From a virus, in the IMG/VR virus record IMGVR_UViG_3300035698_027145, positions 1 through 64,000 of that record: a DNA stretch of 64,000 nt; one strand, written 5' to 3'. A program made the position numbers and the translations under genes. The notes below the pieces were generated by a model. The model had not been told where the DNA came from. It saw nothing but the letters and a program-made list of their open reading frames with translations, and searched no databases. This document shows positions 10,332 through 43,022 of the stretch, in pieces; position 1 is the stretch's first letter; each line of letters begins with the position of its first letter.

Positions 10332-11147
10332 ATGAAAAAAACATTTAATTTAAAAAAGATGGCAGCATCAGGTGATTATGTTATCGGAGATAAAAGTCTA
10401 GAGGAAAACAGAGAGAAGATGGGCTTATCTAACGATCAGCAAGGAGTTGTAGGAAAAAATATTAATCTTAGCTTGCCAGTCAAGAATAAAGATAATACTG
10501 TTCCTTTTAATGCTCAGTTAGATAAAGAACGAAAGAATGCTACAGCAGAGCCTTCTATAACAGAAGATCATATGGACAAAAAAGAAGTAGATTTTAAGTC
10601 TAAAGATAAGAAGCAAGTTATGGATATCAATGTAGAATCTCAGAAACTTGATGATGCTAAGACTGAAGCATATAAAAAAGCAGCAGGCGAAAAAGATACA
10701 GCATTCTGGGATAAGTATGTAGGAGTTCAATTAGAAGGCGAAGGACAGCCTACTAAGGTTAAAGATAATATTCCTGCTTCTTCAAGTCAATTGCAAAACA
10801 ATCCTGAAAGATTTAAAGGTGAAAAAGTTGATAAAATGGTAATGGCATCGATTAAGGATGCTGATGCTATGTTATTCCATATTTATGCAAGTGCATCTAA
10901 AGCAAACAGAGAACTTACTGCTAATGAGAATCAGCAGATCACGGATATTAGTGCTGGAAAAATGAGAATTTTATCACAGATGGTAGAGCCTTTTAAAAGA
11001 TGTTTAGAGCATGGTGGTAAGAGTCAAGATACTACTGCTAAACAGCAGGGTGGAAGAGTGGTTATCTTTGATAATGGAGAACCTATTGACGAGTTTAAAA
11101 GTTGTGAAGAGGCTATGCAGAATTATCCAGAAAGCGATATTGAATAA
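10332..11147 (+). CDS. head-module protein with FNLKK N-terminal tag
   Basis: The 271-residue product starts MKKTFNLKKMAASG, one form of the recurring tag of this genome. The ATG at 10332 is preferred over an in-frame TTG at 10317 because GAGG lies at the right distance upstream. The rest is hydrophilic, Lys/Asp/Glu-rich and looks partly disordered (residues ~20-150), then a helical segment (ADAMLFHIYASASKANRE) and a small C-terminal part with VVIFDNGEPIDEF. Composition and position between terminase and portal suggest an internal or scaffold-associated head protein. The stop overlaps the next start (TAATG). Function otherwise unknown. Confidence 0.65.
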   Translation: MKKTFNLKKMAASGDYVIGDKSLEENREKMGLSNDQQGVVGKNINLSLPVKNKDNTVPFNAQLDKERKNATAEPSITEDHMDKKEVDFKSKDKKQVMDINVESQKLDDAKTEAYKKAAGEKDTAFWDKYVGVQLEGEGQPTKVKDNIPASSSQLQNNPERFKGEKVDKMVMASIKDADAMLFHIYASASKANRELTANENQQITDISAGKMRILSQMVEPFKRCLEHGGKSQDTTAKQQGGRVVIFDNGEPIDEFKSCEEAMQNYPESDIE

Positions 11148-11605
11148 TGCCTAACTGGTTTAAAAAAACAGCACGAATGAGGGGTGGAGTAACTCCGATC
11201 ATGGATGAGTATACTAGGGGAATTCGCCCTGATACAGAGGAACATAAAGAAGATAATGATACCTTAACTAGGCCTGCTGGAGAATTTGGAGGTAACGAAA
11301 GACCAGGTTATCCAAAAGGAATAAGTAAGAATCGTAATAATTCCGATGATCCTACATGGGCTAAATTGCATGGCACAATTCCTGGAGAAGCAGTTTTAAT
11401 GGATGACGGTGGTGATTCTGATGAAGGATTAGGAGATCGTTTCGTGTCTCGAGGAGAGGGAATAGAAGACAACGACACGTTGCCTATAGGGACTCAAGAG
11501 GAATCGGTAAGGTTGGATAAGGGAACTGTTGGTCCACATAATATGCAACAAAATATTTTCAATAGAATAAAGAAAAAAACTAAATTAAGAGGTTTAAAAC
11601 TATAA
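11147..11605 (+). CDS. hypothetical head-module protein, NWFKKTA tag
   Basis: The 152-residue protein begins MPNWFKKTARMRGG, which combines features of the MNWYK and KTA tags seen on other proteins here. The body is Gly/Asp/Glu-rich with little predicted secondary structure (EDNDTL occurs twice, near 36 and 106) and the end is basic (NRIKKKTKLRGLKL). It is coupled to the gene before it and followed by a terminator. I do not recognise a family; the tag and position suggest a protein carried in the head. Confidence 0.55.
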   Translation: MPNWFKKTARMRGGVTPIMDEYTRGIRPDTEEHKEDNDTLTRPAGEFGGNERPGYPKGISKNRNNSDDPTWAKLHGTIPGEAVLMDDGGDSDEGLGDRFVSRGEGIEDNDTLPIGTQEESVRLDKGTVGPHNMQQNIFNRIKKKTKLRGLKL

Positions 11606-11628
11606 ATTTTATACCTTTATAGAATATT

Positions 11629-11662
11629 GAGCCATTAATATTAAATTATTAGTGGCTTTTTT
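11629..11662 (+). terminator. rho-independent terminator
   Basis: GAGCCATTAATA pairs with TTATTAGTGGCT across a short AT loop (one G-T pair) and is followed by a T run, ending the terminase transcription unit. Confidence 0.75.
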
Positions 11663-11681
11663 ATTATAAAAATGAAAAAAA

Positions 11682-11697
11682 TCCGATAGGTATATAG
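11682..11697 (+). promoter_or_regulatory. candidate class B promoter element
   Basis: TCCGATAGGTATATAG follows a terminator and lies about 32 bases before the start of the lysine-rich gene, matching the position of the elements at 1773, 43233 and 48034. Confidence 0.35.
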
Positions 11698-11728
11698 ATT
11701 AATATATTGTCTATACAAGGAGAAATTG

Positions 11729-12691: not shown

Positions 12692-12696
12692 TATTT

Positions 12697-18028: not shown

Positions 18029-18841
18029 ATGAAGCTTATTACTAATCGAATTAGTACAGGAAAGCCAAAAAACTTTGAGGATTTTGTTAATGATTTTAAA
18101 AACAAAAACCGAGTAAAAACGGCTTCCGTAAAAACAGCGGAACAAGAAGAAGCAGATTCAAGCGGACAGCTAGATGTTGAGCCTCTACATCAAGAAGGTG
18201 AATCAACAACTATGCCTAAAGCAGGACCAAGTGCTAAGAAGGATGATGGCGAAAAGTCAGCAGCATCTACTACAGATCCTGAGGCTGAAGCTAAAGATTC
18301 TGGACAGCCTAAGGCAGAAGGTTCAGAAAAATTCACTAATGATCCTAAAGTTCCTTCAAAAGAGGAAAAAGCTGGATCAGCAGATGCTTCTGTTAAAATA
18401 GCTGGCGAAACATGCGAAGGTTGCAATTGTCCAAAGGATGCATGCGAATGCAAAGATTGCACATCTAAAAAAGATGAAGATGATGAAGAAGTAAAAGAAG
18501 CTGGCGTTAAAGGTAATTGTGGAGACTGTGGCAAACCTAATTTCCTATGCAAATGCAAAGGTGATAGTGCTGACAGCGACGACAAGGATGACAAAGATGA
18601 TGACGACAAAGAAGCTAAGACCGATGATAAAGAAGAAAAAGAAGCTAAGGTAGACGAAGATGATAAAGAAGAAAAAGAAGCTAAAGCAGATGAAGACGAT
18701 AAAGAAGAAAAAGAAGCTTCTAAAAAAGTTGAATTTGTAAAGATTGCTAATCTTGATGCAAAGAATAAAAGTTTCTTGACAGAATATTGGAGAGGGTTGT
18801 TTGGTGACGATTACGTAAACGCTCTTGTTTCTGATAAGTAA
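18029..18841 (+). CDS. acidic Cys-rich scaffold-like protein
   Basis: The 270-residue protein has a basic, helical start (NFEDFVNDFKNKNRVKTASVKTAEQ) with two adjacent KTA motifs, then a long disordered Ser/Asp/Lys region. Two Cys clusters at ~128-145 (CEGCNCPKDACECKDC) and ~160-173 (NCGDCGKPNFLCKCK) could bind zinc. A 36-bp acidic repeat (DDKEEKEAK units, 18611-18720) comes next. The end (FLTEYWRGLFGDDYVNALV) is helical and resembles the C-terminal anchor of scaffold proteins. I infer a capsid scaffold or internal protein, with the KTA pair as possible protease sites. Confidence 0.6.
   Translation: MKLITNRISTGKPKNFEDFVNDFKNKNRVKTASVKTAEQEEADSSGQLDVEPLHQEGESTTMPKAGPSAKKDDGEKSAASTTDPEAEAKDSGQPKAEGSEKFTNDPKVPSKEEKAGSADASVKIAGETCEGCNCPKDACECKDCTSKKDEDDEEVKEAGVKGNCGDCGKPNFLCKCKGDSADSDDKDDKDDDDKEAKTDDKEEKEAKVDEDDKEEKEAKADEDDKEEKEASKKVEFVKIANLDAKNKSFLTEYWRGLFGDDYVNALVSDK
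18611..18720 (+). repeat. 36-bp tandem repeat coding acidic DDKEEKEAK units
   Basis: Two complete 36-base units and a shorter leading unit beginning GAAGCTAAG are visible, each coding an acidic EAK-DEDDKEEK block in frame. Confidence 0.8.
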
Positions 18842-20274: not shown

Positions 20275-21456
20275 ATGGGAAAGCCTTTTAATTTGAAAAA
20301 ATCATATAATGCAGATCCATTTCAGCAAATGATGACTGACGTTCCAATGGGATATAATCCTGTGGCATCTCATTATTTGTGGAATAGTGTTTATGCAAAT
20401 GATCCTGCCATGGATTCTATGGCTGATATGTTTAGAGACATGTCTCCTGAAGATATCCAAATGGAATATGAAAGAATGTCCAATCCAGAAGTAGTAGAAG
20501 AGCTTCCCCAAGATGCTGTGCAAATCGATGACGCTAAGCAGCAGATGAGTAGCGTTATAGGAGTTAATGCAAGTGTGAAAAAGCCTTTTAATTTGAAAAA
20601 AGCTCAAGGAGGATTTGCTCCAGATATGATGGAATTGCAAAATGATATGGAGCAGGATTTAGAGCCTAATAGAAAGTTTCAAACGCATTCAGATTTAAAT
20701 AATATGTTGTTACAATTATCTACTTCTAAGAATGCTTTTCAAATTGCATGGAATGAGATTATGGCAGAAAATCCTAAAGAATCAGATTCTGCACAATCAG
20801 CTTTGAAAAGTTATTTTCAAGGTTTGGAAACAAAGGGAGACGAGCAGCGTTTAGATGAAGCAGATATTATTTATAAATTAATTTACGGGAATGAGGAAAG
20901 TATGACTATTAAAGCCCCATACGAACATATAGGTTCAGTTAATGAGATAATTAAGAAGTTAGCTCAAAAAACTGCTAATAAAGATAAGAAAAAAGCTTTT
21001 AATCTCACAAAGACAGCACAGCACAAAACTATGGATAATGCTATCTTATGGGGTCCAGGGCAAACAAGAATAGATCCTTTCTTGCATCAGCCAGTTTCGG
21101 ATTGGCATATAGTTGAAAGAAATAAGGGATTTGGTCTTGTTGTTGATGATGTGTGGAATATTGATTATGAAACTATCTGGCGTGAAAATGTTATGGATAA
21201 ATATTCACGTCCTTATAAAAACAAAGAAGGAGATTGGGTTGGTGGATATATTCAAAAGAGATTTGAAGTTGATAAGAATATCCCAGAGACTAATAATATG
21301 CAACTAAAGCCAGGTCAGCTAAGAAGACCAGTTCTTCCTGAGTACGGCAGCACAGAATCAAGAATGCAAGCGGCTAGATCAGCAGGCGACATTGCAGGTG
21401 CTAACGATACTTCAAAACCATTCAATTGGAAAGAAGCAAGTAAAAAAAAAAGATAG
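20275..21456 (+). CDS. protein with four internal FNLKK tag copies
   Basis: The 393-residue protein carries the tag four times: MGKPFNLKKSYN at the start, KKPFNLKKAQGG near 102, KKAFNLTKTAQH near 242 and SKPFNWKEASKKK at the end. The first two copies share an identical 21-base DNA stretch (20278 and 20581). The tags divide the chain into about 100-, 140- and 140-residue blocks, as expected for a polyprotein cut into separate packaged peptides. The third block holds an aromatic-rich domain (WGPGQTRIDPFLHQPVSDWH). The stop follows a run of ten A, and a -1 shift there would join this gene to the next one. Confidence 0.65.
   Translation: MGKPFNLKKSYNADPFQQMMTDVPMGYNPVASHYLWNSVYANDPAMDSMADMFRDMSPEDIQMEYERMSNPEVVEELPQDAVQIDDAKQQMSSVIGVNASVKKPFNLKKAQGGFAPDMMELQNDMEQDLEPNRKFQTHSDLNNMLLQLSTSKNAFQIAWNEIMAENPKESDSAQSALKSYFQGLETKGDEQRLDEADIIYKLIYGNEESMTIKAPYEHIGSVNEIIKKLAQKTANKDKKKAFNLTKTAQHKTMDNAILWGPGQTRIDPFLHQPVSDWHIVERNKGFGLVVDDVWNIDYETIWRENVMDKYSRPYKNKEGDWVGGYIQKRFEVDKNIPETNNMQLKPGQLRRPVLPEYGSTESRMQAARSAGDIAGANDTSKPFNWKEASKKKR
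21442..21451 (+). other. A10 slippery run, possible -1 frameshift
   Basis: Ten consecutive A just before the stop of the upstream gene contain A AAA AAA in register. A -1 slip continues in frame for 12 codons (IAQLKPLEGLKP) directly into the ATG of the next gene with no stop. Frameshifting, transcript slippage or a sequencing indel are all possible. Confidence 0.45.
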
Positions 21457-21935: not shown

Positions 21936-24900
21936 ATGGCTAAATTTATTATGGCAGACAATACTCCTCAAAATAAGAGGAGAATGATAGCAGCATCGGG
22001 AGGCTATTCAGCACCAGATGATTCTAAAAAAATTCATAAGAGTGGGTTAGCTCACTCTATGACAGTAAGCGTTCCTATAACTAAGAATTCACAATTTGCA
22101 GGGTCAGCGGCAGGTGTAGCTATGCCTCAGCCTATGTTTTTTAGCCCACTTCATACTCCACAGAACTGGCAGATAGCAAGTAGGCGTAGAGAGATCATGC
22201 AATGGTCTAGGTTCTACTACATGAATGAACCTAAAGTAGCAGCAGGTGTGGATTTCTATTCTAACTTCTCTATGAATGGATTTAAACTCGAATGTAAATC
22301 TAAAAAGGTTTTGAAATTTTATGAAAGATTAGTAGAAAAATTAGATCTTTCAGAAAAATTAAATGCTGTCAGTCACGAATATTTTCTTATTGGTGATGTT
22401 TTTCCATTCGCAGAAATAGAATGTCCAACTTGCGGAGGCGCAGGAAGAACACAAGACGGTGAGATATGTAATCACCCTGATGGAACGTTCAAAAGTATAA
22501 AGCTAATGAATCCTGACTATCTTGAAGTTAGAGATGCTCCTATTGCGTCATGCCCTGAATACTATTTGGTTCCTGATGAGGAATTAAAAATGGTTGTTCA
22601 GAGACAAGAACCTAAAAGTATATATGATAAATTGCCACCTAGTCTTATTGCGGCAGTTCAATCAGGAAATCCTATTAGATTATCAGATAGAAGCATTAGT
22701 CATTTAAAACATAACGCTAGCGATTATGGAACATACGGAACATCTATGCTTCAGAGATTGTTTACAGTCTTGGCATACAAAACAAAGATTATGACAGCTA
22801 ACTGGATTGTAGCAGAGAGATTAATCCTTCCTGTTAGAGTTGTAAAGGTTGGTGATAAAGATAGACCAGCGACTGATACTGATTTGACAGATGTTCAAAA
22901 TCAATTATCAGCAGTTGCTAACGATCCTAACCTTACCATTGTTACTCACCATGCTTTTGAATATGAATGGTTTGGAGCATCGGGCAAGATTCATAATATT
23001 ACACAAGAAGTAGAACAGATAGGTAAAGAGATCTTAGATGGTCTTATGCTTAACCAAGCTATTCTAAATGGAGAGATGGCTGGCTATTGCCTAAGTGAAG
23101 ATACTCTTACTCTTACTGATTCTGGTTTTAAACATTATTGGGATATTCATGAAACAAAAGATAAAATTGCTTGTTATAATTCTGACACTAAAAAAATAGA
23201 ATATCATCTTCCTTATGAGAAAGTAGTGTATGATTATGAAGGAGAGATGGTCCATTTTAATACTGATAAGATAGATATTTTAGTAACTCCTAATCATAGG
23301 ATGTGGAGTGCTAAGAGAGGTTCTGATAAGTTTGAGATAATAAGAGCAGAAGATGTTCGTTCAAGAGCCAAGTTTATAGGAGCAATAGATGGATATGAGG
23401 GAGAATATATCCCGTATGTTGAAATTGGAGAAAAACAATATAATGTTTATGATTTTTGTAAATTAGTTGGATATTATGTTTCTGAAGGATGGGTCTCAAA
23501 AGAAAATAGGAAGAATAGAACTAAGAAATATACTACCGTTTCGATTGGTCAGAGTGTTAATGGAAAAGCTAGAGAAGATATAGATGGTTTATTTGACGAT
23601 ATGTTTGATACTCATTACGATAATGATAATGAGATACATGTTTATAAGCCTGAACTAGCAGATTATTTAAGGACTAATTTTGGGTCTGGGGCTATTAATA
23701 AAAAACTTTCTTCTTTTGTTAAAAATCTATCGACTGAATGTTTGGAGATAATTTTAGATGCTATGGTAAATGGAGATGGTTGTATCCATAACCATATAGG
23801 AGAGAATAGAAAAGTTAGTGGAACATCATATTATACCTCAAGCGAACAACTCGCTAATGATTTTGCAGAAATAGCGTTCAAGTGTGGCTATATAACTAAA
23901 ATAAGAAAAGTATCAAAGAAGAATAATAGTAAAAAATATTTCAATAAAACAGGGCATCAGTATAAAACTAATCATCAACAATATGTTGTTTACATTTCAA
24001 AGGGATTTAAGGGGAGAACCCCTACTCTTCATTCTAAATCTGAAAAATATGCAGGAAAAGAAATAACAAGAGTTCCTTATAATGGCAAGATTTATTGCTT
24101 TTCTGTTCCTTATGAAAAGTTCGTAACTATGAGAAATGGAGTAGTCACTATCCAGGGCAACACCAGTGCACAGGTTGGTATCGAAGTTCTTATTAGAAGG
24201 TTGGATAACTGGAGAAATAAGTTAAAATCTTGGGTAGAAAAGAATATATTTGAACCTGTTGCAATGATGCAGGGATTTATAGATGAAGAAGAGTCTCAGT
24301 ATATTAATGAGACAGTTTATTTATATCCAAAGCTTACATGGAATGATTTGCAGCTTAGAGATAAGACTAATAGAATACAAACATTAATGCAGATGTATGA
24401 TAAAGGAATGGTATCTGCACAAACTGTTCTTGAAGAGATGGATCTTGATTATGATTCAGAAGTTGAGAAGATTAGAGAAGAGCAGTTAATGGCTCAAGCT
24501 AATGGTCAAGTAGCTGGCATGGATGGTGGTGGAGATGCTATGGGTGGCGCTCCAATGGGAGGTGGCCCAATGGGTGGAGATATGGGAGGTATGCCAGGCA
24601 TGGAGGGTGCTCCAGGCGCTGAGATGGGCGGTATGCCAGGCGGAGATATGGGAGGAGGTATGGGAGGTGCTCCAATGGGAGGCGCTCCAGGAGGTATGGG
24701 GGCAGCAGCTTCAGGAGAAATGCCTATTATAGGTAAGAGAGGTTCTAAGAATAAACAACAAGAAGAGGAAGAGCAAGCACCACCTCCTCAGATGATTAAG
24801 CTGACAAAGTTAGAACAGAAAATGTTTAGAACTCTTTCTGCAATGGATACTCCTCAGGATTTATTTGCACAATATCAAGTTAAAGTGCCAGGAGAAGCAA

Positions 24901-28083: not shown

Positions 28084-31000
28084 TGGCAATGTATAAAAGA
28101 GCAACATTTTCACATAAGTGTAAAGTAACTGCTTTGAATAAACCAAAAGGAGAAGGTTGGGATATCTATGATCTTCCTAATCAAATTAAAACTGCCTCTA
28201 CTACTGTAGAAGGAGAAGATTTGAATGGTTTTGATCTTAAACAAGCAACTACTGATCACCCAGATCATCTTTACATTAAAGTTTTTGCGATTAAAAAAGA
28301 TGAACCTAATGATAATGGAGACGCTTTCTGCGAAGCAGAACTTAAAACAGCAGCTCCTTCATTCGTTGGTGTTCCACTCTTTACTAATCACCAAAATGAT
28401 GATGTAGAAAAAGCAAGAGGAGAATGCGTTCACTCTTGGTACGATCAAGAAGAAGGTGGTATCTATATTATAGGAAGAGTTGATAAGATTGCTTATCCTC
28501 GTCTTGCAAGAGGTATAGAAGAAGGATATATAACAGGCTGTTTTCCCCCAGATGCTCCAGTTCTCATGTCCGATGGAACAGAAAAAAGTATTTGTGACAT
28601 TGAAGACGGTGATGAGGTTATCTCTGGAAAGGGAAATATTAAGAAAGTTTTAGGAATAAGGCAAAGAGGATATAACTATCCTATTGTTTCTATTCAATTA
28701 GAAGGAAATAAACAGCCATTAGTTTGCACTTCTCATCATAATCTTATGGTTTATAGATTACCAGAGCTGTGTGCATGTGGGTGTGAAGAAGAATTAGTTC
28801 TCAAAAAAGATAAGAGAATAACGTCAAAAACTTTTAATAGAAAATTTAGAACAGGTCATAACTTAAGGGGAGAGTCTGAAGAATTTAACCATGAGTATAT
28901 TCAAAAGATAAAAGCTTGCGAACTAGAAGATGGTGATTTTTTAGTTGAGCCAAAATTTGTTGATGAGAGTTGCGATGATTATGTTACAGAAAATGAGGCT
29001 TTTTTAATTGGTTTGTTTTTGGCTGAAGGAAGTTTTGAAAAAAGAAAAGGAATTAGACATTCTGCCATATTTAATTTTGCTCATACAGAAAGAGATACTT
29101 TAGCATTTCAATGTGAAGAAAAATTAAAAAAAGCATTTGCTACTCATAGAAATGGCCCTACAACTAATTATTATCCTGGAGCATCTCAAACAAGAGTTAA
29201 TTTATATGGGAAAGATATCGCTGATTGGTTTTATGATAGATGTGGAGAATATAGCGATGGGAAGATTTTAAATGAAAAATTAATGAAGTTAGGTAAAGAA
29301 AAAACTTCTTCGTTATTGGCAGGTTTTATTGAGGGAGATGGGTATAAAGTTAAAGAAAAATATTATGGATTTGGAATAGTTTCTTCTAATTTAACAAGCC
29401 AGCTTAGATTATTGTTTGAAAAAATAGGGGTAAGAACGAATTATAAGGTGATTACAGAAGATAATGGGAGATGGGGATATAAGCCTGTTCATGAGGTTAC
29501 TTTTGGCAAGACCACTGTTCCCGATTTATTTTGGGATAGATTAATATACAAAAAAGCAGAAAAGGCAAAGGCGAAAGCAGCGTCATGGCACAGTTTGGAA
29601 GATTATACTCTTAGAAGAGTGAAGGAAATTAAAGAAATAAATTATGATGGAATAGTTTATGACATAGAGGTTGAGGATGATCACACTTATTGCGTGAATC
29701 ATATAGCAGTGTCTAACACATCAATGGGATGCTCTGTAGAAAATTCTATTTGCTCTGTATGTCATAACAATGCACATACAGCAGATGATTATTGTTCTCA
29801 CGTAGCAAATAGAAAGAACAGAAAGTATACAGGAGATCTCAAGTGTTCTTATCATAATAGTCCAACAGATAAACAGGATAAATGTCCTGTTTGTCATAGC
29901 ACATCAGATGATGCTAAAACTCTTAAACACTCAGAGCAGGCAATCTTTGAACACAACTATGGTCTTAAGTTTATTGAGAATAGTTTTGTAGTTAATCCTG
30001 CATGTCATGATTGTGGAGTTAGATGTATCCTACATGCCCCTACAGTAGAGAGCAAAGTAGCATCTTTCCAGAATACAGTTTCTAACCTCGTTAAAGAGGC
30101 TCACCTTAAAGAGGGAGACTCAGCACTTGAAGGGTTTATTACTAGACTTGGTGGAATGAATGAACTTCAGTCTATTAAGAATAGCATGGACGAACTTGAG
30201 AAGGTGACTAAGAGCATGTTGAAACAGAAGGAAAACATCTCAATGGAATACGTTAGCCAAATTGTTAAGGCTATGTCGGATATTCAGGAGTTCTATGATG
30301 AGTTGATAGAGATGGGATATGGGGCTTTGCCTTCTCCTCCTGTGATGGGAGCAGATGATAGTCCTCCATTAGTAGCAGAACAACCTCAAGCAGCTATGCC
30401 ACCAGAGCAGATGGCAGCTCAACAAGCACCTCCTCAGCCAGGTGGAAGTCAAACTTCTGATCTGGGAGGATTAGGAAATATCACTTTGCCTAAAAATTCT
30501 TCAAGAAAAATAGAGGAATTTTCTAAAATAAGTGGAAATCTAATAAATAAAGTAACCTCTCTGGAAGAGAGTCTACGTGAATTGAATAAAAATATTAATT
30601 CCAAATTAAATATAGGAGCAGAAATGGCTACTGACAAGAAAAATACAAAAGTGGCGGCTAGCACTGATAATCTTGAACTGATTACCGAAAAACAGCTTAT
30701 GAAGGAAGAAGAGTCTCTTCATCCAAGAACAGGCGAAGTTTATGAAGGTATCACAGAGAGTAAAGAGCAGATTGGTGGATCAGAGCGAAGCAACGATACC
30801 ACATCAAGTAGCCCACAAATTCGTGGTGGAACTTATGAAACTACTACAGAAGATCAACTAAAGACTAAAAGTGCTTTAGGTGAATCTGTTATTCACTTTA
30901 ATGAATATCCAGATGTCATTACTGAGAAACAGTGGGACGATTTTAGTAGAGATGTTGCTGGTGAACTTCCAGATGACTATACTGAATCTATTACTCAGGC

Positions 31001-34000
31001 TCAGATTAGAGAACTTCTTAGCAATCATAAGTATATAGGTAATGTTGAGACTATCACTGAGGATCAGTTGAGAAGTATAGATATGACTGATGGCTTGAAG
31101 AGATGGGCTAACAAAAGTTATTCTGTATCACTAGTTAAAACTGCTTCTCTTGTTATAGCAGATATGATTTCTACATATCGCAAATCTCCATTAGAGATTA
31201 AAAAAATAGCTTCTATTATCTCTGATGATCAGGCTATGAAGTCTAAAGTATCTTTCTTGTCTGTTCTTAATTCTCTTCCTCATAAAAAGGATAGTAGACA
31301 GACAGTTGCTTCTAATGCTTCGTATTTTGCAAAAACAGCTTCACAAAATGGTTTGTCAACTGTTGATGCTTTAATTTTGACAGCAGCTTCACATGGCCAG
31401 TTCGGAATGAGAGCAGAAGATGTTCTTGATACTATTGCTCATGTCATCAATAGCGAAACTCAGATGGTAAAGGTCAATTCAATAGTAGCAAGTAAAATGA
31501 ATAAAGTATCAGATGATAATGTTGTTACTAAGTCATCTGCATTTGATTCTGCTATTAAAGAACTTGATAAACCTAAAGATGGTAAATATCAACTAAGAGC
31601 AACGATGGAAGATATTGGCGCTCCTATTACTGATAAGGTTGCATTCGTTGCTGGCGTAAAGAAATTTGCTCAGGAAATGATAGATGATGAATCAGTAGCA
31701 GCAGCAGTTATCAAAATTGAAGTTGGAGATAGTGGAGAGTTAATTATAGATATCCAAGATGGTGCTGAGGAAGAAATCGTTCCTGATGACATCGGTGATG
31801 TTATTGAAGGCCCAGTTGAAGATATAGATGCTGATATTAATGGCGATGAGGTTGGATGTCCATTCGAAGAAGATGGTTTGGAAGAAGATGGTTTGGAAGA
31901 AGAGACTAAAGATGCTAGAATGCCAGGTGCAGAACAAGGTGGAATGCAACAAGGCAATGTAATGGCAGCAGCTAAAAAAGAAATTAAAAAGACTGCTCAG
32001 ATGATGGGTGGTGAAATGGGTGGTCAAGCTGGTGCGGCTCAGGCTCCTGGTGCTGGTGCAGGAATGCCAGGAACTCCAGGTATCGGCGCTCCTCCAATGG
32101 AGAACTTTACAGATGAGGCAGGAATGGGTGAGGAAGAAGGCGGACTCGAAGATAATCTTGAGCCACTCCCTCCAGGATCTATTTGCCCAGTTTGTGGTAG
32201 TGATGATGTTAATGTTCTTGATGGCAAGGGTCAATGTGGCAATTGTGGTTCAGAGATGACTTATAAGGTAGAAGTTAACGTTACTAAGTGGCAAGGTGTT
32301 ACTCCTGACGAAGACGGTGGAGATGAAGATATCGAAGAAGGTTTTGAAGGAGAAGGTTTTGAAATGCCAGGTGGAGAAGAAGAACTTGGAGCAGCTCCAG
32401 GTGGTATGGAAATGGAAATGGGCGAAATGCCAGCAGCCGCTTCCGTTACTAATAATAGAGAAGTTAAATTTGCAACGACTATAAAAATTAAGCCTGAAGC
32501 AGTTAAAAAGGTAGCAGCAGCAAAACTTAAAGTTGGTTCATATAGTCCTGCAACAGGTTCATCTAATACTGTAGACCTTGGAGATGGCAATCACATCTGC
32601 TTGGATACAGGAACAAAGTATAAAGTTGCCTTCATGACATCTAAAGACGGCAAGCAAGTATATGGTCAGTGGGAATGGGTTCCAAGAACTGCATCAGCAA
32701 TCTGCCCATCTTGTGACAGAGCAAAAGCAAAATTCGTTAAAGCTCTTTCAAGTGTTAACTTGACATCAGCGAGCTTTGATAAGATGGAACTTAAAGATCA
32801 AGTTGAAACAATTATTAAGCTTAAACAATCTGGTTCTTTGCAGACTATCAAAACAGCAAGCAAAGAAGGATCAGTTATTGCAGATTATAAATTGGCATAC
32901 GGTGGATACGGCAAGAGCTTCCCAATCGAATCTTGTATTGAAAAACTTGCAAGACGTTTTGGTGAAAATGCTTTGTGCTTGAGTGGTCCAGATGAGGGCA
33001 AGCCTCTTGCAGCATCAGTATGCAATAGACTTAAGAAGGCAGACGTTTATACAACAAAGATCGCTACTAGATTAGCTGACAACTGGAGTGATTGTGATGG
33101 AGACGAAGAGTGTATTACCCATCAGATCCGTTCAGGATATAGCTTAAGACAAGCAGCAGAAGTTTGCTCTACTCTTAAGGTAGCTATAGCAGAAGGTGAA
33201 GATTTCTTAGCAGATGGATTAGCAGGAGAAGAAGAGTTTGATGGCACTCCTGATAATGATCCAGATGTTCCTGTAGTAGAAGAAGTTGATCCATTCGAAG
33301 GAGATATGGGTGATGACATCGGTGGTGGAACAGTTACTCTTGAACTTCCTATGGAAGTTGTAGAGCAGTTAGATGCTCAGCTTGATGTTGCTTTGGGTGA
33401 GAATCCAGCAGAAGAAGATCACCACGATGATTTAGATATGAATGGTGAAGCTGATATAACTGAAGATCCATTAGGTGATGATCTTGGTGGAGATCTTGGT
33501 GAAGCTCCTGTCGAAGAAGCTATCGGCCCAGGCGACCTAGACGAGACAAAAGACATGGCAATGCCAGCAACTGCAAACCCAATGGGTGGAGAAATGAAAC
33601 CTGCTGAAGACCCAGGAATGGGTGGAGAAGTTGGTGCAGATGGATCGACTCCAGACCAAGGAATGGGTGGAGAAATGAAAGATGTAACACCAGGCGTTTC
33701 AGAATTTTCACAAAATGTTCAGAATAATAAAGGAAATTTGGGACAACCTCAGAATAGTATTACAGTTAATGGGCAACCTGTAGGTGGGAACCCAATGACA
33801 GCGGAAACTGTAATGGAAAATAATGTTGGAAAGGTTGGCAAAACACAAATGGATCTTTCAGGTGTAATAGCGGCTATAAATAAAACTGCTGGGGAAAAAG
33901 AAATTTCTCAGTCTAAAGCTCAGGACTCAAGCGATATCGGAACCTATACAGCAGGTGAAGGTGGAAGCCAAATGGGTCATGAGTCTGATACAATTAGAAC

Positions 34001-34892
34001 TCCTCAGAAGCCTTCAGTTCCAAGAGATAAAGCTCTTATGGGCAATGAAGATGCTGACTTGAATCCACAAGATAAACCTCAACCAGTTATTCCTTCTGAA
34101 AATGCAACAATGGGGCATGAAGATGAAGCAGGTCTAAGCGGTGGAGATAATAGTTACACTGGTGGTGATAAGGGTCAAGGAAAAACAGAACTTGCTTCTA
34201 TAGATGAAGATCTTTTCCATATGAAGGGATTTGGAAATTCAAAGGCTGGTATCTCAAGCCTTGCAGATAGAATTGCTAAGAAACTTGCTCCAAAAGAGCC
34301 AGTAGCAGACGATCCTGATATTAAGCCTTTCTCAGATGGTGGAACTATCGGTAAAGAAGAGAAGTTCGATGCAGCAGAAATTAATGAGTCAGATGTTAAA
34401 AGTGACTCAGGAATGATGGGACACGAAAGCGAAACATTGGGAACAAAACCTGATTCTCCAAAGGATCATCCTGAAGTGTTTACAGGCAATGCTCAACAGG
34501 GTCAGGAAGAATTAGATAGTGAAAAAACAACAAAAGATAAAGGTACAGTAATCGCGAATAGCGATTCGGAGTCCGAGGCTATTAGGGTAGCATCAAGAAT
34601 GCTTCAAGCAAGTCATATTGAAGCAGGAGATATGCCATCTAAGATTAGCGAACTAAAAGCTTATAAGGCAGCACAGATTAGAGATATCGAAAAAGCTATC
34701 TTTGCTCAAAAAGGACTTAACACTGTTTCAGATGGTATGTCTCAAACCATACAAATAAATGAGGCTAGCAGCGTAAGAAATGCTAAAGATGATCTCAGCA
34801 CAAAACTATCGTCATTATTCACTCTTGAGAGACAGAATGTTGATGCTGATAGTAATGAAATGACTCAGCTTAGAAAAACTTACAATAAGTAA
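28083..34892 (+). CDS. prohead protease fused to a very long scaffold-like region, with intein
   Basis: The 2269-residue precursor starts MAMYKRATFSHKC. The protease part (~60-152 and ~546-690) shows FTNHQND (His103) and, after the intein, TSMGCSV with the likely nucleophile Ser547, spaced as in HK97-like prohead proteases. Zinc-binding CSVCHNNAHTADDYCSH and FIENSFVVNPACHDCG follow. The remaining ~1570 residues are scaffold-like: helical, acidic and disordered, with a zinc ribbon (CPVCGS, CGNCGS), Gly/Met-rich segments and MGHE repeats. KTA motifs recur (IKTAST, LKTAAP, VKTASL, AKTASQ, KKTAQM, IKTASK, NKTAGE), possibly self-cleavage sites. Protease-scaffold fusion is known in smaller form in phages such as lambda; this size is unusual. 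Confidence 0.8.
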   Translation: MAMYKRATFSHKCKVTALNKPKGEGWDIYDLPNQIKTASTTVEGEDLNGFDLKQATTDHPDHLYIKVFAIKKDEPNDNGDAFCEAELKTAAPSFVGVPLFTNHQNDDVEKARGECVHSWYDQEEGGIYIIGRVDKIAYPRLARGIEEGYITGCFPPDAPVLMSDGTEKSICDIEDGDEVISGKGNIKKVLGIRQRGYNYPIVSIQLEGNKQPLVCTSHHNLMVYRLPELCACGCEEELVLKKDKRITSKTFNRKFRTGHNLRGESEEFNHEYIQKIKACELEDGDFLVEPKFVDESCDDYVTENEAFLIGLFLAEGSFEKRKGIRHSAIFNFAHTERDTLAFQCEEKLKKAFATHRNGPTTNYYPGASQTRVNLYGKDIADWFYDRCGEYSDGKILNEKLMKLGKEKTSSLLAGFIEGDGYKVKEKYYGFGIVSSNLTSQLRLLFEKIGVRTNYKVITEDNGRWGYKPVHEVTFGKTTVPDLFWDRLIYKKAEKAKAKAASWHSLEDYTLRRVKEIKEINYDGIVYDIEVEDDHTYCVNHIAVSNTSMGCSVENSICSVCHNNAHTADDYCSHVANRKNRKYTGDLKCSYHNSPTDKQDKCPVCHSTSDDAKTLKHSEQAIFEHNYGLKFIENSFVVNPACHDCGVRCILHAPTVESKVASFQNTVSNLVKEAHLKEGDSALEGFITRLGGMNELQSIKNSMDELEKVTKSMLKQKENISMEYVSQIVKAMSDIQEFYDELIEMGYGALPSPPVMGADDSPPLVAEQPQAAMPPEQMAAQQAPPQPGGSQTSDLGGLGNITLPKNSSRKIEEFSKISGNLINKVTSLEESLRELNKNINSKLNIGAEMATDKKNTKVAASTDNLELITEKQLMKEEESLHPRTGEVYEGITESKEQIGGSERSNDTTSSSPQIRGGTYETTTEDQLKTKSALGESVIHFNEYPDVITEKQWDDFSRDVAGELPDDYTESITQAQIRELLSNHKYIGNVETITEDQLRSIDMTDGLKRWANKSYSVSLVKTASLVIADMISTYRKSPLEIKKIASIISDDQAMKSKVSFLSVLNSLPHKKDSRQTVASNASYFAKTASQNGLSTVDALILTAASHGQFGMRAEDVLDTIAHVINSETQMVKVNSIVASKMNKVSDDNVVTKSSAFDSAIKELDKPKDGKYQLRATMEDIGAPITDKVAFVAGVKKFAQEMIDDESVAAAVIKIEVGDSGELIIDIQDGAEEEIVPDDIGDVIEGPVEDIDADINGDEVGCPFEEDGLEEDGLEEETKDARMPGAEQGGMQQGNVMAAAKKEIKKTAQMMGGEMGGQAGAAQAPGAGAGMPGTPGIGAPPMENFTDEAGMGEEEGGLEDNLEPLPPGSICPVCGSDDVNVLDGKGQCGNCGSEMTYKVEVNVTKWQGVTPDEDGGDEDIEEGFEGEGFEMPGGEEELGAAPGGMEMEMGEMPAAASVTNNREVKFATTIKIKPEAVKKVAAAKLKVGSYSPATGSSNTVDLGDGNHICLDTGTKYKVAFMTSKDGKQVYGQWEWVPRTASAICPSCDRAKAKFVKALSSVNLTSASFDKMELKDQVETIIKLKQSGSLQTIKTASKEGSVIADYKLAYGGYGKSFPIESCIEKLARRFGENALCLSGPDEGKPLAASVCNRLKKADVYTTKIATRLADNWSDCDGDEECITHQIRSGYSLRQAAEVCSTLKVAIAEGEDFLADGLAGEEEFDGTPDNDPDVPVVEEVDPFEGDMGDDIGGGTVTLELPMEVVEQLDAQLDVALGENPAEEDHHDDLDMNGEADITEDPLGDDLGGDLGEAPVEEAIGPGDLDETKDMAMPATANPMGGEMKPAEDPGMGGEVGADGSTPDQGMGGEMKDVTPGVSEFSQNVQNNKGNLGQPQNSITVNGQPVGGNPMTAETVMENNVGKVGKTQMDLSGVIAAINKTAGEKEISQSKAQDSSDIGTYTAGEGGSQMGHESDTIRTPQKPSVPRDKALMGNEDADLNPQDKPQPVIPSENATMGHEDEAGLSGGDNSYTGGDKGQGKTELASIDEDLFHMKGFGNSKAGISSLADRIAKKLAPKEPVADDPDIKPFSDGGTIGKEEKFDAAEINESDVKSDSGMMGHESETLGTKPDSPKDHPEVFTGNAQQGQEELDSEKTTKDKGTVIANSDSESEAIRVASRMLQASHIEAGDMPSKISELKAYKAAQIRDIEKAIFAQKGLNTVSDGMSQTIQINEASSVRNAKDDLSTKLSSLFTLERQNVDADSNEMTQLRKTYNK
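28539..29717 (+). mobile_element. intein with LAGLIDADG endonuclease in the protease gene
   Basis: The intein spans residues 153-545 (393 residues). It begins Cys1 (CFPPDAPVLMSDGTEKS, block A), has block B CTSHH, LAGLIDADG helices (LIGLFLAEGSF and LLAGFIEGDGY), block F (VYDIEVEDDHTYCVNHIAV) and ends SN before Thr+1. The penultimate residue is Ser instead of His. It sits one residue before the predicted catalytic serine, so the protease should stay inactive until splicing. Confidence 0.93.
33950..34470 (+). repeat. degenerate protein repeat with MGHE motif
   Basis: Four spaced copies of an MGHE or MGNE motif occur in the C-terminal part of the giant protein (QMGHESD, LMGNEDA, TMGHEDE, MMGHESE), with Pro/Asp-rich spacers containing IRTPQKP or LGTKPDSP. 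It looks like a degenerate linear repeat. Confidence 0.6.
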
Positions 34893-35582: not shown

Positions 35583-36455
35583 ATGGCTTTTGATAAAAAT
35601 GGTTTAACTGACCAAGAAAAAGAAATGGTTATCGCTCAGGCTCTAGAGACTGACGAAGGTAGAACAGCCCTTGCACAGGCAATGGTAGAACCTATTAGAA
35701 GGGCACTTGAGTATCAAGCTGTCGGTAGAAAACTTCTAATGGTTGACGAACTTCCACAGGGCGCTCTAGCTCGTTACGAACGTGACGTTGCAGCGATCGC
35801 TTGGGTTGTATCTCGTAGAGGTGCTGTGCCTGACCAGATTCAAGAAGGAGAAGAAGTGTTGGTTCCTACATTCGAAATTGCAGCGAACCCAACAGTTAGA
35901 CTTAGTGAGATCAAAGCTCGTAGGTTCTACATCGTAGACAGAGCACAGATCAAGGCTAAAGAAGCAATCCAGAAGGAAGAAGATAGTAACATATTTAACG
36001 CATTGCTTACTGCTGTTCCAGCAGCTCAGCAAATAACAAACTATGGAACTCTTACGATTCCTGCGTTGAATGAAGCGTTTAAGCAGATCGAACAGCATGA
36101 CCTTGTAGCAGCTAAGATCGTTACACATGCTTTCCAGTATGCTTCAATCAGAACATTCGGTAAGGATTTCTACGATGAGGCAACTCAGAGAGAAATTATC
36201 ACAACTGGTCTTTACGGCCATCTGTGGACTGCTGATATTCACGTTTCAAGCAGAATGGATAGTGCAACTGTTCTTGTAGTTGCTAGTCCTGAAACCGTTG
36301 GAGCATTCCCAATCAGACAGGACATTACAGTTCTGCCTGCTGACGATCCAAAGAAATTACGCCTTGGCTGGGTCATATACGAGGAAGTTGGAATCGTTGT
36401 TATAAATGATTATGCAATTGCAAAAATCACTATGACAGACGCGACTGTATCTTAA
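35583..36455 (+). CDS. major capsid protein (HK97 fold)
   Basis: The 290-residue protein forms the capsid shell. It shows the common small-phage HK97-fold pattern: N-terminal helix (EGRTALAQAMVEPIRRALEYQ), P-domain strand VLVPTFEIAANP, the long helix with AQIKAKEAIQKEEDSNIFNALLTA split near 120-145, a domain with IVTHAFQYASIRTFG, VHVSS-like IHVSSRMD, and an A-domain end VVINDYAIAKITM. No scaffold delta domain is attached; scaffolding seems to come from other genes. Codon use is richer in C-ending codons than in neighbours. It has a strong AAGGAG and is followed by a terminator. Confidence 0.9.
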   Translation: MAFDKNGLTDQEKEMVIAQALETDEGRTALAQAMVEPIRRALEYQAVGRKLLMVDELPQGALARYERDVAAIAWVVSRRGAVPDQIQEGEEVLVPTFEIAANPTVRLSEIKARRFYIVDRAQIKAKEAIQKEEDSNIFNALLTAVPAAQQITNYGTLTIPALNEAFKQIEQHDLVAAKIVTHAFQYASIRTFGKDFYDEATQREIITTGLYGHLWTADIHVSSRMDSATVLVVASPETVGAFPIRQDITVLPADDPKKLRLGWVIYEEVGIVVINDYAIAKITMTDATVS

Positions 36456-37382: not shown

Positions 37383-38051
37383 ATGAATTGGTATAAGAAA
37401 TCACAACGATATAAAAAGAGAGAATGGTCTAAGGATGAGATTCAAACTATTAAAGAATTAATAGAAGAAGGGCATTCATTCGAAGAAATAGGAAGTCTTT
37501 TTGGTATGAGCAATTATACTATATTGAGATTAAATAAAGAGCATGGACTAGTAGACCTTGAAGCAAGAAAAATAGAAAAAGACAAACGGATAATTGGTTT
37601 TTATTTGTTGCCTCCAGATGGAGAAGGGTTAAGCACAAAACAAATCACAAAACAATACGGTATACCTATAACAAGTATTAAGAGGGCATTAAAAAGATTT
37701 GGCTTATCTGATCAGTATAGAGATAGGGAGTGGTATGATTCTCCAGAAAATAAAAAGAGATTATCAGAAATTGAAACAGAGAAGGCTTCTGATCCCGCTT
37801 ATAGAGAAAGGATGTCTGATATGCAGAAGCAAAGATATATAGATGATCCTGATTTGCATAGACAGAGATCTGAGCAGGGTAAAAAAGTTCATCAAGATAA
37901 TCCTCAATTAGCTATTGATAGTAAAGAAAGAATGGAAGAGAGATGGAGTCAATATCCAGGAGGTTTTGAGGAGTGGGTAAGCACATTTCCTCCTGAAAGA
38001 CAACAACCGATAAGGGATGCTGTGAATGCAAAATATAGGACTCGGGCTTAA
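37383..38051 (+). CDS. MNWYK-tagged helix-turn-helix protein 1
   Basis: The 222-residue protein starts MNWYKKSQRYKKREWS. Residues ~14-52 form a helix-turn-helix (EIQTIKELIEEGHSFEEIGS then MSNYTILRLN), and ~68-108 a second one introduced by FYLLPPDGEGLS. The rest is charged and helical with NUMOD3-like DPAYRERMSDMQKQR repeats, which occur in homing endonucleases as DNA-binding motifs. Two paralogues follow. No Shine-Dalgarno is seen before the ATG, a trait shared by most MNWYK genes here. A DNA-binding role is likely; delivery in the virion is a hypothesis. Confidence 0.65.
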   Translation: MNWYKKSQRYKKREWSKDEIQTIKELIEEGHSFEEIGSLFGMSNYTILRLNKEHGLVDLEARKIEKDKRIIGFYLLPPDGEGLSTKQITKQYGIPITSIKRALKRFGLSDQYRDREWYDSPENKKRLSEIETEKASDPAYRERMSDMQKQRYIDDPDLHRQRSEQGKKVHQDNPQLAIDSKERMEERWSQYPGGFEEWVSTFPPERQQPIRDAVNAKYRTRA

Positions 38052-38053: not shown

Positions 38054-38650
38054 ATGAATTGGTATAATAGACAATTAAAGATATCTGGTGGTCCAAGAAG
38101 AGAATGGTCTGCTGAAGAGTTGGAAGAAATAAAAAAATTAATACAAAAAGGAAAATCGTATAGATATGTAGGGGAGATGTTTAAAGTTAGCCCTAGGTCG
38201 ATAGAAGGGTTAAATAAGAAATATCAATGGTTAAATAAAAAGGAAGAATTAATAAAAAAATATAGGCGGATAGCGAGTCTTTACCTATTGCCGCCAGAGG
38301 GCAAAGGGATATCAGGATATCAATTGAGAAAAGAATATGGACTAAGTAATAGCGATATCGTTTCAGCTTTAAAGTTTTTAAATAAATCAGAATTTTATAG
38401 ACTTCCTAATGACAAGTATGTAATGGAGCAGCGTTCAATATCTGCAAAAGAATGGTGGGAAGATCATGGTAGACTAGAGGGATATCTCACTTCTATTTCA
38501 AAAGAAGAGGCAATATCTTTTTTGAATAATCTGGTATCAAATATCAATAAAACCAACAATAGAAAAGCTTTTAACACATATAACAAATACATGCAGATCA
38601 TCAACAATCACACCTATCCTGATGAAGTTCAGCAGGGAGTAACTGTTTAA
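38054..38650 (+). CDS. MNWYK-tagged helix-turn-helix protein 2
   Basis: The 198-residue paralogue starts MNWYNRQLKISGG and has the same first helix-turn-helix (EELEEIKKLIQKGKSYRYVG then VSPRSIEGLN) and the second behind LYLLPPEGKGIS. The C-terminal ~55 residues (YLTSISKEEAISFLNNLVS, then KYMQIINNHTYPDEVQQ) are shared with the next gene but not with the first paralogue. It begins 2 bases after its neighbour with no visible Shine-Dalgarno, so it probably depends on coupling. Confidence 0.65.
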   Translation: MNWYNRQLKISGGPRREWSAEELEEIKKLIQKGKSYRYVGEMFKVSPRSIEGLNKKYQWLNKKEELIKKYRRIASLYLLPPEGKGISGYQLRKEYGLSNSDIVSALKFLNKSEFYRLPNDKYVMEQRSISAKEWWEDHGRLEGYLTSISKEEAISFLNNLVSNINKTNNRKAFNTYNKYMQIINNHTYPDEVQQGVTV

Positions 38651-38651
38651 T

Positions 38652-40127
38652 ATGAATTGGTATAAGAGACAATTAAAGATAGCAATGCCTAGAAGTTCTG
38701 CAAAAAGAGGATGGACAACAGAAGAATTAGAGAAAGTGAAGAAATTAGTAGAAGAAGGAATGAGTTTTGAAAGGATAGCAAAGCTGTTTGGAGCATCTGA
38801 GAACTCTATACGCCAATTGAATGCAAAGTATAAATGGGTAGATTTAGAGCTAAGAAGGAAAGAAAAAGAGTTAAAGTGGAAAGAAGAAGATGAGAAGATA
38901 GTTAATCTTTATCTATTACCTCCTCGAGGCGAGGGAGTGTCTGCCAGAGAGATAAGAAGGAGACATGGATTTGGTCTTAAAAGAGTGCAAAAGGCATTAG
39001 AAAGATTAGGGCTATCAGAATATTACAGAAATATATCAGATACTAATAAACGAACATATGACGAAGAAACAATCAAAAAAATAGATTATTTATATAAACA
39101 ACCTCCAGAGGGATTGGGTTTGCCAATGCATGAAGTGGCTAATCGTATTGGGTCGGCTAAAGAATCTTTAAAGAGATTTTTTAATGAAACTGGAAGGAAC
39201 ATAAGGACAGTAGAAGATCAGTTAAAATTATTTAATCCTCAAAAATCTAGTAAGTGGGAAGAAGTTGAAGCCAATAAAGAAGAAATTCAAAATATGTTAA
39301 ATGAAGGATATTCTAAAAAGCAAATAGCAGAGTTGTTTGAAGTTGGTCCTCAATTAATGATAAAAATGTTGAATAGATTAAATGTTTTTAGAGATTTTAA
39401 TAAGGTCAAACAAAAAGCTCAAGAGATGATGGATCAAGGGATGCTCCTAACTGAGATTTCAAGGAAGTTAAAAATTGATCCTAGAAAAATTAAAAAAATG
39501 TTTGATCTCGAGACTAAATCTAGGAATTATAGCCCTGGTGTTCCTATATCTCCAGAAGAAGGAGATGAAATAATAAGATTACATATTAAAGAAGAATTAA
39601 GACCTACTGAAATATCTAAAAAATTAAATAGACCTATAGCTAGTATTGTTGATTTTTTAACACGCAAAGGCGTTTATAAGAGATTAAGGGGAGATTGGGT
39701 TAGATTCGATCCTACAGAAGAACAGATTAAACAGATAGATGATTGGTATGCTTTGCCTCCGAAGGGAGAAGGTAGATCTCTTATATGGATAGGTTATAAG
39801 TTCGGATTATCTGGCAGTCAAATGGGGTATTGGTTTCATAAAACAGGCAGACCTGTTAGAAGTTTCGAAGAGCAGGTTGCTACCGATGCGACTAAAGAAG
39901 ATATAAGTTTAGCTAAAATTATAGACTGGGAAGAAAAAGGGGGATTAAAAGGTTTATTAACAGATTTTTATCCTACAAGACAGCAATCTATAAATTATTT
40001 AAACAGTTATGTTCATAGGTTATTACAGCAGGGAGCTAGTAGAAACAGAGCTTTTGGAACAAGAACTAAGTATATGCAAATCATCAACGATCACACATAT
40101 CCTGATGAAGTTCAACAACCTGTTTAG
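38652..40127 (+). CDS. MNWYK-tagged multi helix-turn-helix protein 3
   Basis: The 491-residue protein is the longest of the three paralogues. After MNWYKRQLKIAMPRSS it holds at least five helix-turn-helix units: ~22-60, ~85-125 (LYLLPPRGEGVSAREIRRRH), ~133-175 (YKQPPEGLGLPMHEVANRIG), ~210-240 and ~255-290, then LHIKEELRPTEISKKLNRP and WYALPPKGEGRS. It ends with the block shared with protein 2 (KYMQIINDHTYPDEVQQ). The PP(x)GxG boxes mark unit borders, showing growth by internal duplication. It probably reads a long DNA site. A terminator follows. Confidence 0.65.
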   Translation: MNWYKRQLKIAMPRSSAKRGWTTEELEKVKKLVEEGMSFERIAKLFGASENSIRQLNAKYKWVDLELRRKEKELKWKEEDEKIVNLYLLPPRGEGVSAREIRRRHGFGLKRVQKALERLGLSEYYRNISDTNKRTYDEETIKKIDYLYKQPPEGLGLPMHEVANRIGSAKESLKRFFNETGRNIRTVEDQLKLFNPQKSSKWEEVEANKEEIQNMLNEGYSKKQIAELFEVGPQLMIKMLNRLNVFRDFNKVKQKAQEMMDQGMLLTEISRKLKIDPRKIKKMFDLETKSRNYSPGVPISPEEGDEIIRLHIKEELRPTEISKKLNRPIASIVDFLTRKGVYKRLRGDWVRFDPTEEQIKQIDDWYALPPKGEGRSLIWIGYKFGLSGSQMGYWFHKTGRPVRSFEEQVATDATKEDISLAKIIDWEEKGGLKGLLTDFYPTRQQSINYLNSYVHRLLQQGASRNRAFGTRTKYMQIINDHTYPDEVQQPV

Positions 40128-40208: not shown

Positions 40209-40244
40209 TATGATGTGAAGAATTAAGTCAGGAGAGTTGCACTA

Positions 40245-40553: not shown

Positions 40554-40557
40554 TTTG

Positions 40558-40568: not shown

Positions 40569-40597
40569 ATATGAAGAATATAACAATAAAATTTGGC

Positions 40598-40628: not shown

Positions 40629-40633
40629 CAGAT

Positions 40634-40849: not shown

Positions 40850-40859
40850 GAGAAATAAA

Positions 40860-41219: not shown

Positions 41220-41221
41220 CC

Positions 41222-41911: not shown

Positions 41912-41917
41912 AACATA

Positions 41918-41945
41918 TTGACAAGTGAAAGTGATATAATATAGT
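41918..41945 (+). promoter_or_regulatory. class A promoter for candidate RNA
   Basis: TTGACA (41918-41923) with AGTGAAAG extension, 16-base spacer and TATAGT (41940-41945). There is no good open reading frame between it and the terminator at 42119. Confidence 0.65.
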
Positions 41946-41951
41946 GTAAGA

Positions 41952-42149
41952 GTGAATGCCGAGTGTATGTTGCGTTTCAGAGTCGTTACCTTAAGTAATG
42001 TGGTGGAGTTGCGTTTTTGGTTATTGCCTTAAGCACACGCCCTAGAGTAGTTGCCTTTAGCAACTTGGTGGATCTGTCGGTTATTGGATGTCTTACTATT
42101 CAGTTACTTGGCCCCGAGAAGAGTCGTCCTACAGGGCGGCTCTTTTTTT
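41952..42149 (+). ncRNA. candidate structured small RNA with internal duplication
   Basis: Between a sigma70-like promoter and a strong terminator lie about 195 bases with no credible gene. The sequence is richer in G and C than its surroundings and contains a ~45-base unit twice: GTTACCTTAAGTAAT then TGGTGGA (from 41985) and GTTGCCTTTAGCAAC then TGGTGGA (from 42050), each followed by a GGTTATTG box. Each unit starts with a small hairpin whose loop is CTTAA or CTTTA, and the stem pairs change together (GTTAC/GTAAT against GTTGC/GCAAC), which supports RNA structure. A reading frame at 42017 crosses it but has no ribosome site. Not recognised as any known RNA. Confidence 0.6.
42119..42149 (+). 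terminator. rho-independent terminator of candidate RNA
   Basis: AAGAGTCGTCC pairs with GGGCGGCTCTT (two G-T pairs) around TACA, followed by seven or more T. Confidence 0.9.
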
Positions 42150-42194
42150 ATTTAAAAATAAAGGTTTTTCCCCTTTTTTGTCGAAAATTATTAT

Positions 42195-42716
42195 ATGAAT
42201 TGGTATAAAAGATCAAAAAAAGAGTGTAGTGGATGGGTTGCCGTTAAACTCCCTCAGAAGCCTGCTAAGAAGATGCAAGATTGGGGCAAGGATAACATCC
42301 CATATAGCCTTTTGCACGTTAAAGAGGGCAAGGGGAGGGAAACAGACACCCATATAACTGTCATCTATGGAGTTTGTGATAATAGTCTAGAAGCTATTAA
42401 TCATATAGTTAAAAACTACAAGTCTATAAAAGTCAAACTTGGCAAAGTAAGTTATTTTAAGAACGCTCCTGATTTCGATGTAGTAAAAATTGAGATTATT
42501 AGTGATGATCTGAAAAAACTTCATGCAGAGATAAAAAGAACATTAGATGTAGAAGAAACTCACCCTGTCTATAATCCTCATGCTACTATAGCTTATGTTA
42601 AAAAGGGAGAAGCTGCTCAATTTGGAGGAGATACATTTATGGAAGGAACAGAGATAGTTTTTGACAAAGTGACTTTTATAAATGATGATAAAGAAGAGAT
42701 AGAGATAAAATTATAG
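42195..42716 (+). CDS. MNWYK-tagged 2H phosphoesterase
   Basis: The 173-residue protein begins MNWYKRSKKECSG and contains both catalytic HxT motifs of the 2H phosphoesterase (2'-5' RNA ligase-like) superfamily: HITVIYG (H53, T55) and HATIAYV (H129, T131). These enzymes cleave 2',3'- or 2'-5'-linked nucleotides, and T4 Acb1, a family member, destroys CBASS cyclic-nucleotide signals. That makes a counter-defence role plausible, especially if the tag places the enzyme inside the virion for early delivery; both are inferences. RNA processing is an alternative. The start has no Shine-Dalgarno, like other MNWYK genes, and follows the small RNA terminator. Confidence 0.8.
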   Translation: MNWYKRSKKECSGWVAVKLPQKPAKKMQDWGKDNIPYSLLHVKEGKGRETDTHITVIYGVCDNSLEAINHIVKNYKSIKVKLGKVSYFKNAPDFDVVKIEIISDDLKKLHAEIKRTLDVEETHPVYNPHATIAYVKKGEAAQFGGDTFMEGTEIVFDKVTFINDDKEEIEIKL

Positions 42717-42749
42717 AGGATTTTTATCTTTTTGGGAGAATATAATTAT

Positions 42750-43022
42750 ATGAATTGGTATAAAAGATCACAATATAATGAAGATGTTCCTGTAGTTAAT
42801 ATTGAGGAACATAATGGCTACTACTATGCTTCGGTTGATGGTGATCTAACAAAGATTAAAGGGTATATGGAGTCTTTGTCAAATGGTGCTTGGCAGATCG
42901 TAGAAGATCTAAATATATTAGGGAACTATCCTAGCAAGGAAGAAGCTTATCAGGCTTATGTGAAATATATTAAGAAAGAGCTTCAATATGTATCAAGAAG
43001 AGAAGAGCCTCAATTAGTATAA
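42750..43022 (+). CDS. MNWYK-tagged small protein
   Basis: The 90-residue protein starts MNWYKRSQYNEDVP. ATG 42750 is chosen over in-frame TTG 42732 because the tag begins here and GGGAGA lies upstream. The body is alpha/beta: VVNIEEHNGYYYASVDGDL, IKGYMESLSNGAWQIVEDL, EEAYQAYVKYIKKEL. No family recognised. It is the last tagged gene in the window. Confidence 0.6.
   Translation: MNWYKRSQYNEDVPVVNIEEHNGYYYASVDGDLTKIKGYMESLSNGAWQIVEDLNILGNYPSKEEAYQAYVKYIKKELQYVSRREEPQLV

Follow-up and report, generated by a model that had tools for sequence, protein, structure and literature searches.

Phage T4 packages the ADP-ribosyltransferase Alt and the anti-restriction protein IPI by means of propeptides (PMC9026906). 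These capsid targeting sequences, carried by IPI, IPII, IPIII and Alt, are short N-terminal peptides on otherwise unrelated head-packaged proteins; in IPIII, about ten residues suffice, the front ones for targeting and residues 8-10 for processing (PMC9026906). Head proteolysis in SPN3US (gp245) cuts at A-X-E and prefers Ser after the cut, and in the phiKZ/SPN3US systems many head proteins are cut at N-terminal propeptides, some of 20-24 residues, while the protease cuts itself and the portal is cut as well (PMC10052503). A comparable arrangement is suggested by a 64-kb stretch of virus DNA (the window), positions 1 to 64,000 of IMG/VR record IMGVR_UViG_3300035698_027145, which makes up most of the record's 64,827 bases. 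In the window, unrelated protein bodies share N-terminal tags of the MKIIKTANY (KII), MNWYKR and FNLKK kinds. In the phage-G-like clade to which the window is assigned, the N-terminal tag is probably a short prohead-targeting propeptide that is cut at K-x-A by the head protease, after which the freed bodies would be injected.

On sequence grounds, the record is identified as part of a giant phage akin to phage G (Donellivirus relatives), because its major capsid protein (MCP) shares 55% identity with Bacillus phage G gp27 and has relatives encoded at 80 IMG/VR loci, the longest contig among them reaching 548 kb. Homology to phage G is also found in the portal (32%) and the protease (E 4e-43).

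Tags were surveyed in 16 genomes comprising the window, 14 related contigs and phage G, with 3,878 genes in all. The genes of the relatives were called by a simple script of our own and have approximate start positions; expected tag counts were taken from the frequency of the same patterns at other protein positions. W[YF][KRNQ] occupies residues 2-4 of 79 genes, against 2.85 expected by position, and the KII type stands at residue 2 of 23 genes, against 0.22 expected. MNWY opens 34 proteins and has no internal occurrences. The earlier note's claim of a recurring tag on differing bodies is borne out by these counts and by the 128 body families into which the 166 tagged proteins fall (BLASTP, 1e-5). 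Selection acts on the tag peptide, because the DNA 5ʹ of tag starts holds almost no information, save for a weak Shine-Dalgarno signal, and the tag codons vary synonymously (for Asn, AAT 51 and AAC 38). MNWYK[KQ]AQ is confined to 11 of 2.9 million viral contigs; either this capsid protein or this protease is encoded on nine of them. The protease was not found on four tag-bearing fragments.

The motif KTA, previously taken as the element common to the tags, does recur, but the real common element is the broader K-x-A. Among MNWY proteins, for which the search pattern had no alanine requirement, K-x-A is found at residues 5-22 in 55/88 and at control residues 35-52 in 2/88 (p 1.5e-19). The same comparison in KII proteins gives 32/58 and 6/58, with a search pattern that partly favours A. 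The FNLKK element also leads into K-x-A in relatives of the genes at 10332 and 20275 (MTFNLKKA-Q, FNWKEA-S, FNLSKTA-Q); its presence was correctly noted, but it belongs mainly to scaffold-like proteins, one of which has four copies, rather than serving as a cargo tag. The specificities of the known systems are ruled out for the tags: the T4 consensus [LI]-x-E is not enriched (10/88 at residues 5-22 and 15/88 in the control), nor is the phiKZ consensus [SAG]-x-E.

K-x-A is also prominent in the head core. A ranking of all genes of the 16 genomes by K[TIVSQ]A enrichment was made without using the tags, with the expectation computed per protein from its own composition. Protease-scaffold polyproteins take the top seven places, and the family of the acidic 18029 protein likewise ranks close to the top. 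The window polyprotein holds 18 K[TIVSQ]A, where 3.9 would be expected, and the seven KTA previously counted in it are exactly the number in its 2269 residues. Across 14 aligned polyproteins, K.A leads all spaced residue pairs, with 13 conserved scaffold columns compared with 6 for the runner-up. Directly before the protease domain, all 50 distinct polyprotein relatives have [KR]-x-A, commonly with I/V at P4 and in 41/50 with Ser at P1ʹ; the window site reads IKTA-S. Furthermore, most polyproteins open with a short tag whose last residues are K-x-A (MAMYKRA-T, MSFTKRA-S, MFEKRA), which links the tag to the head core. K-x-A-Q occurs around residue 48 of most portals, where the window has TKNS, and K-x-A follows their C-terminal nuclease domain, where the window has IKTA-S. 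The reported recurrence of the motif in protease/scaffold, portal and acidic scaffold-like protein therefore stands, with K-x-A conserved between domains and at the portal flanks. The Vsr/DUF559-like endonuclease domain (window portal residues ~940-1065) is present in all checked relatives except phage G, and is possibly removed from the portal as the head matures.

The head protease gene sits between the portal and MCP genes, and its assignment to the prohead-protease class agrees with domain matches and, at weak E-values, with fold matches. Peptidase_S78_2 is matched by 5/10 members (E 2e-4) and the head maturation protease family phrog_18299 at E 2.5e-5, and the domain has an invariant NH (H70) and an invariant SMG Ser (S121) in A1, both with a presumed catalytic role. 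The assemblin of human cytomegalovirus (HCMV) cleaves between Ala and Ser. This enzyme (PDB 2wpo/1nju) and T4 gp21 make up the top five PDB matches of an AlphaFold2 model of the protease. Herpesviruses are not known to have a cargo-tag system like the one proposed here, and sequence similarity between the two proteases is undetectable; searching the PDB by sequence with the protease profile yielded no useful match. Peptidase S78/XkdF-type head proteases resemble the window protease in this Pfam match, in the gene's place between portal and capsid and in the fused scaffold, but the scores are weak and the window protease is fused to a scaffold of ~1,500 residues with multiple sites. In phage G, the homolog is gp19 (L083:16885-17742), which has LVKTA-A, LEKVA-S and LLKIA-S around the protease domain; in RefSeq it is named only "gp19", and the ClpP-like gp257 is labelled head maturation protease. 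In the window, an intein at residues ~153-545 of the polyprotein is located precisely at the SMG motif, whose Ser is presumed to be catalytic, so the head protease would be inactive until the intein is spliced.

The steps that we infer from these patterns are recruitment, cleavage at K-x-A, virion presence and injection. A lineage-specific front (MNWY- or MKII-; elsewhere MWY- or MKRL-) would bring the protein to the head core during assembly, and the head protease would cut the K-x-A behind it. Further cuts by this protease, each after the A of K-x-A-S/Q/A/G, would fall in the polyprotein to which it belongs, in the linkers of the scaffold and at the ends of the portal. Freed bodies would remain in the head and then be ejected into the next host. 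In T4, likewise, the front half of the propeptide targets and its end is cut by the prohead protease; here both roles are predicted. The best reading is a system that targets proteins to the head and processes them much as T4 does, with both the tag and the putative specificity new; it is not a T4-type member by sequence, because both of these differ: the window clade has another tag sequence, K-x-A instead of [LI]-x-E, and many more candidate cargo genes. The proposed site shares the P3-x-P1 form and the favoured Ser at P1ʹ with phiKZ/SPN3US (PMC10052503). Unlike the propeptides of those phages, the tags of the window clade carry K-x-A, are short, and are common to unrelated proteins genome-wide.

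Some observations weigh against this interpretation. About one third of the tagged proteins are without K-x-A in the first 22 residues, and some have K-x-S. The protease fold match is moderately confident (probability 0.69-0.93, E 0.1-0.28, predicted local distance difference test score 79). Additionally, tagged genes cluster strongly near the capsid gene, as was expected, in the large relative G003, with 13/15 of them within 30 kb (p 8e-12), but are scattered in G001, G002, G016 and phage G. Dispersed cargo genes are compatible with a head-loading mechanism, though the prediction of clustering is not general.

The tag might instead be a protease substrate only, or be trimmed incidentally, with other protein parts doing the head loading. 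In keeping with this, K-x-A is the part best conserved across tag families and the fronts differ between lineages. However, MNWY is invariant despite body divergence (Acb1-like orthologs at 29% identity), and MNWY, MKII and MKRL all lie outside K-x-A, so a second function of the front is likely and a substrate-only role rather unlikely. It is unlikely, too, that the tag directs proteins elsewhere in the infected cell, such as the membrane or a replication compartment, with K-x-A serving that purpose and resembling the scaffold motif by coincidence. The scatter of tagged genes in several genomes and the aromatic-basic starts, which could bind membrane, would suit such a role, whereas the shared kind of start in the protease polyprotein and scaffold-like proteins, and the dominance of K-x-A among conserved scaffold motifs, argue against it. 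An origin of the K-x-A enrichment in composition is very improbable: the scaffolds are Lys/Ala rich, but the excess persists when each protein's own composition sets the expectation, the aligned sites have Ser at P1ʹ, and neither the reversed motif A-x-K nor R-x-A nor E-x-A is enriched in MNWY tags. Scarcely credible is a translation-start or DNA element (a shared ribosome-binding region) or recent duplication, since unconserved upstream DNA and variable third codon positions rule out the former and the 128 body families the latter, although some neighbouring helix-turn-helix (HTH) genes of the window are paralogs.

The proposed propeptide would also be exchangeable. One DUF5661-type body stands behind a KII tag in G005, G011 and G002 but behind MNWYKQA in G001. 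In the G002/G016 lineage the tag is MWYKxA; that of phage G, MKRLIKK[AS], is found at residue 2 of 16 genes and at no control position, on PARP-like and other bodies. Phage G (NC_023719) proteins with MKRL tags at 35181, 70929, 81748, 178671 and 245994 have the look of divergent ADP-ribosyltransferases, based on HGTS/HYTS starts and two weak PARP matches, and recall T4 Alt. Other tagged bodies include HTH, AAA_33/polynucleotide kinase, 2H phosphoesterase/Acb1, acetyltransferase, tRNA nucleotidyltransferase, ART-PolyVal, zeta-toxin-like, lysozyme, KptA, 2H-SAK, DUF5661 and rhodanese types. In keeping with the effector role that the earlier note supposed, these bodies look like host-takeover or anti-defence proteins, and T4 cargo likewise includes an ADP-ribosyltransferase and an anti-defence protein. 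The 42195 protein matches Pfam Acb1 at 2e-6 and has two HxT motifs, with an E of only 0.019 against PDB Acb1; it resembles the Acb1 that counters the cyclic oligonucleotide-based antiphage signaling system (CBASS), with putative cyclic nucleotide hydrolysis.

It is reasonably likely that a modular head-loading code, consisting of a targeting front and a K-x-A cut site, recruits any gene as injected cargo across this giant-phage clade. Virions would then carry a sizeable arsenal that includes pre-loaded Acb1-like anti-CBASS proteins, ADP-ribosyltransferases, RNA-repair proteins and DNA-binding proteins. Finding out which giant-phage proteins are carried into the host with the DNA has so far required mass spectrometry phage by phage. 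A code common to tag, scaffold and protease would make the cargo readable from genomes and predict exact mature N-termini. It nominates dozens of uncharacterised genes as injected effectors, some of them anti-defence, and the sequence code applies to the cultured phage G.

A general occurrence of the tag in capsid-related phages was rejected, as no gene near the capsid gene of the distant relative LR745208 (MCP 35%) carries a tag of this kind. Mycobacterium phage Breeniome, of a group related at 27% in MCP, has KTA/RTA sites in its polyprotein, and its adjacent gp104 and gp105 (L255:15688-18868) begin alike with TAREQFEML.PW, which may be the tag of another lineage and was found in these two only.

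All tag starts previously listed for the window were recovered by open reading frame (ORF) listing (Table 1), with 27798 the weak item: its tag start stands, its status as a full gene does not, and it is read from the sequence as a decayed cargo gene that has retained its tag. A weak variant, MKRIDTKKYA, begins at 15600.

Table 1. Head genes and tagged or scaffold-like genes of the window.
Feature	Position	Strand	Basis or remark
Terminase large subunit	8336..10264	+	family match
Scaffold-like, starts MKKTFNLKK (FNLKKMAA)	10332..11147	+	orthologs MTFNLKKAQ, MAKFNLRKQA
Variant MPNWFKKTA	11147..11605	+	ORF, ortholog comparison; G008 ortholog MGNWFKKS
MKILKTA-NY, zinc-ribbon-like body, 95 aa	13543..13830	+	ORF; weak Zn-ribbon match below cutoff
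Acidic scaffold-like protein	18029..18841	+	5 K[TIVSQ]A vs 0.8 expected; orthologs also enriched
Scaffold-like, starts MGKPFNLKK	20275..21456	+	four FN[LW](K/T/S)K-x-A copies incl. FNLKKA-Q, FNLTKTA-Q, FNWKEA-S
Portal protein	21936..25301	+	intein; C-terminal Vsr/DUF559-like nuclease domain
MKIIKTKNY, total 64 aa	25792..25986	+	ORF
MKIIKTKRYA	26160..26612	+	ORF, ortholog comparison; orthologs MKIIRTAKYA (L009), MKIIKTKKFA (L006)
MKIIRTANY	26612..26920	+	ORF
MKIIRTANY	26946..27347	+	ORF
MKILKTANY, second site IKTA-A, DnaJ-type zinc-finger-like body	27360..27785	+	L013 ortholog MKIIKTKNY
Tag start MKIIRTANYKKRMKKAEQ, truncated remnant	27798..27887	+	stop after 29 codons
Prohead protease + scaffold polyprotein	28083..34892	+	intein; own start tag MAMYKRA-T
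Major capsid protein	35583..36455	+	55% identity to phage G gp27
MNWYKKSQ, HTH body	37383..38051	+	ORF, domain match
MNWYNRQLKIS, HTH body	38054..38650	+	ORF
MNWYKRQLKIA-M, HTH repeats	38652..40127	+	ORF, domain match
MNWYKRSKK, Acb1-resembling 2H phosphoesterase	42195..42716	+	orthologs MNWYKKAKK, MNWYRTIKE
MNWYKRSQ	42750..43022	+	ORF

Elsewhere in the window, two adjoining paralogs at 1831-5371 have, by eye, metallophosphoesterase-like and LamG-like parts and are probably tail-related. Paralog repeats lie at 58665-61698, and several genes at 61724-63999, near the right end, as well as 41222-41911, have a sulfotransferase-type look by eye.

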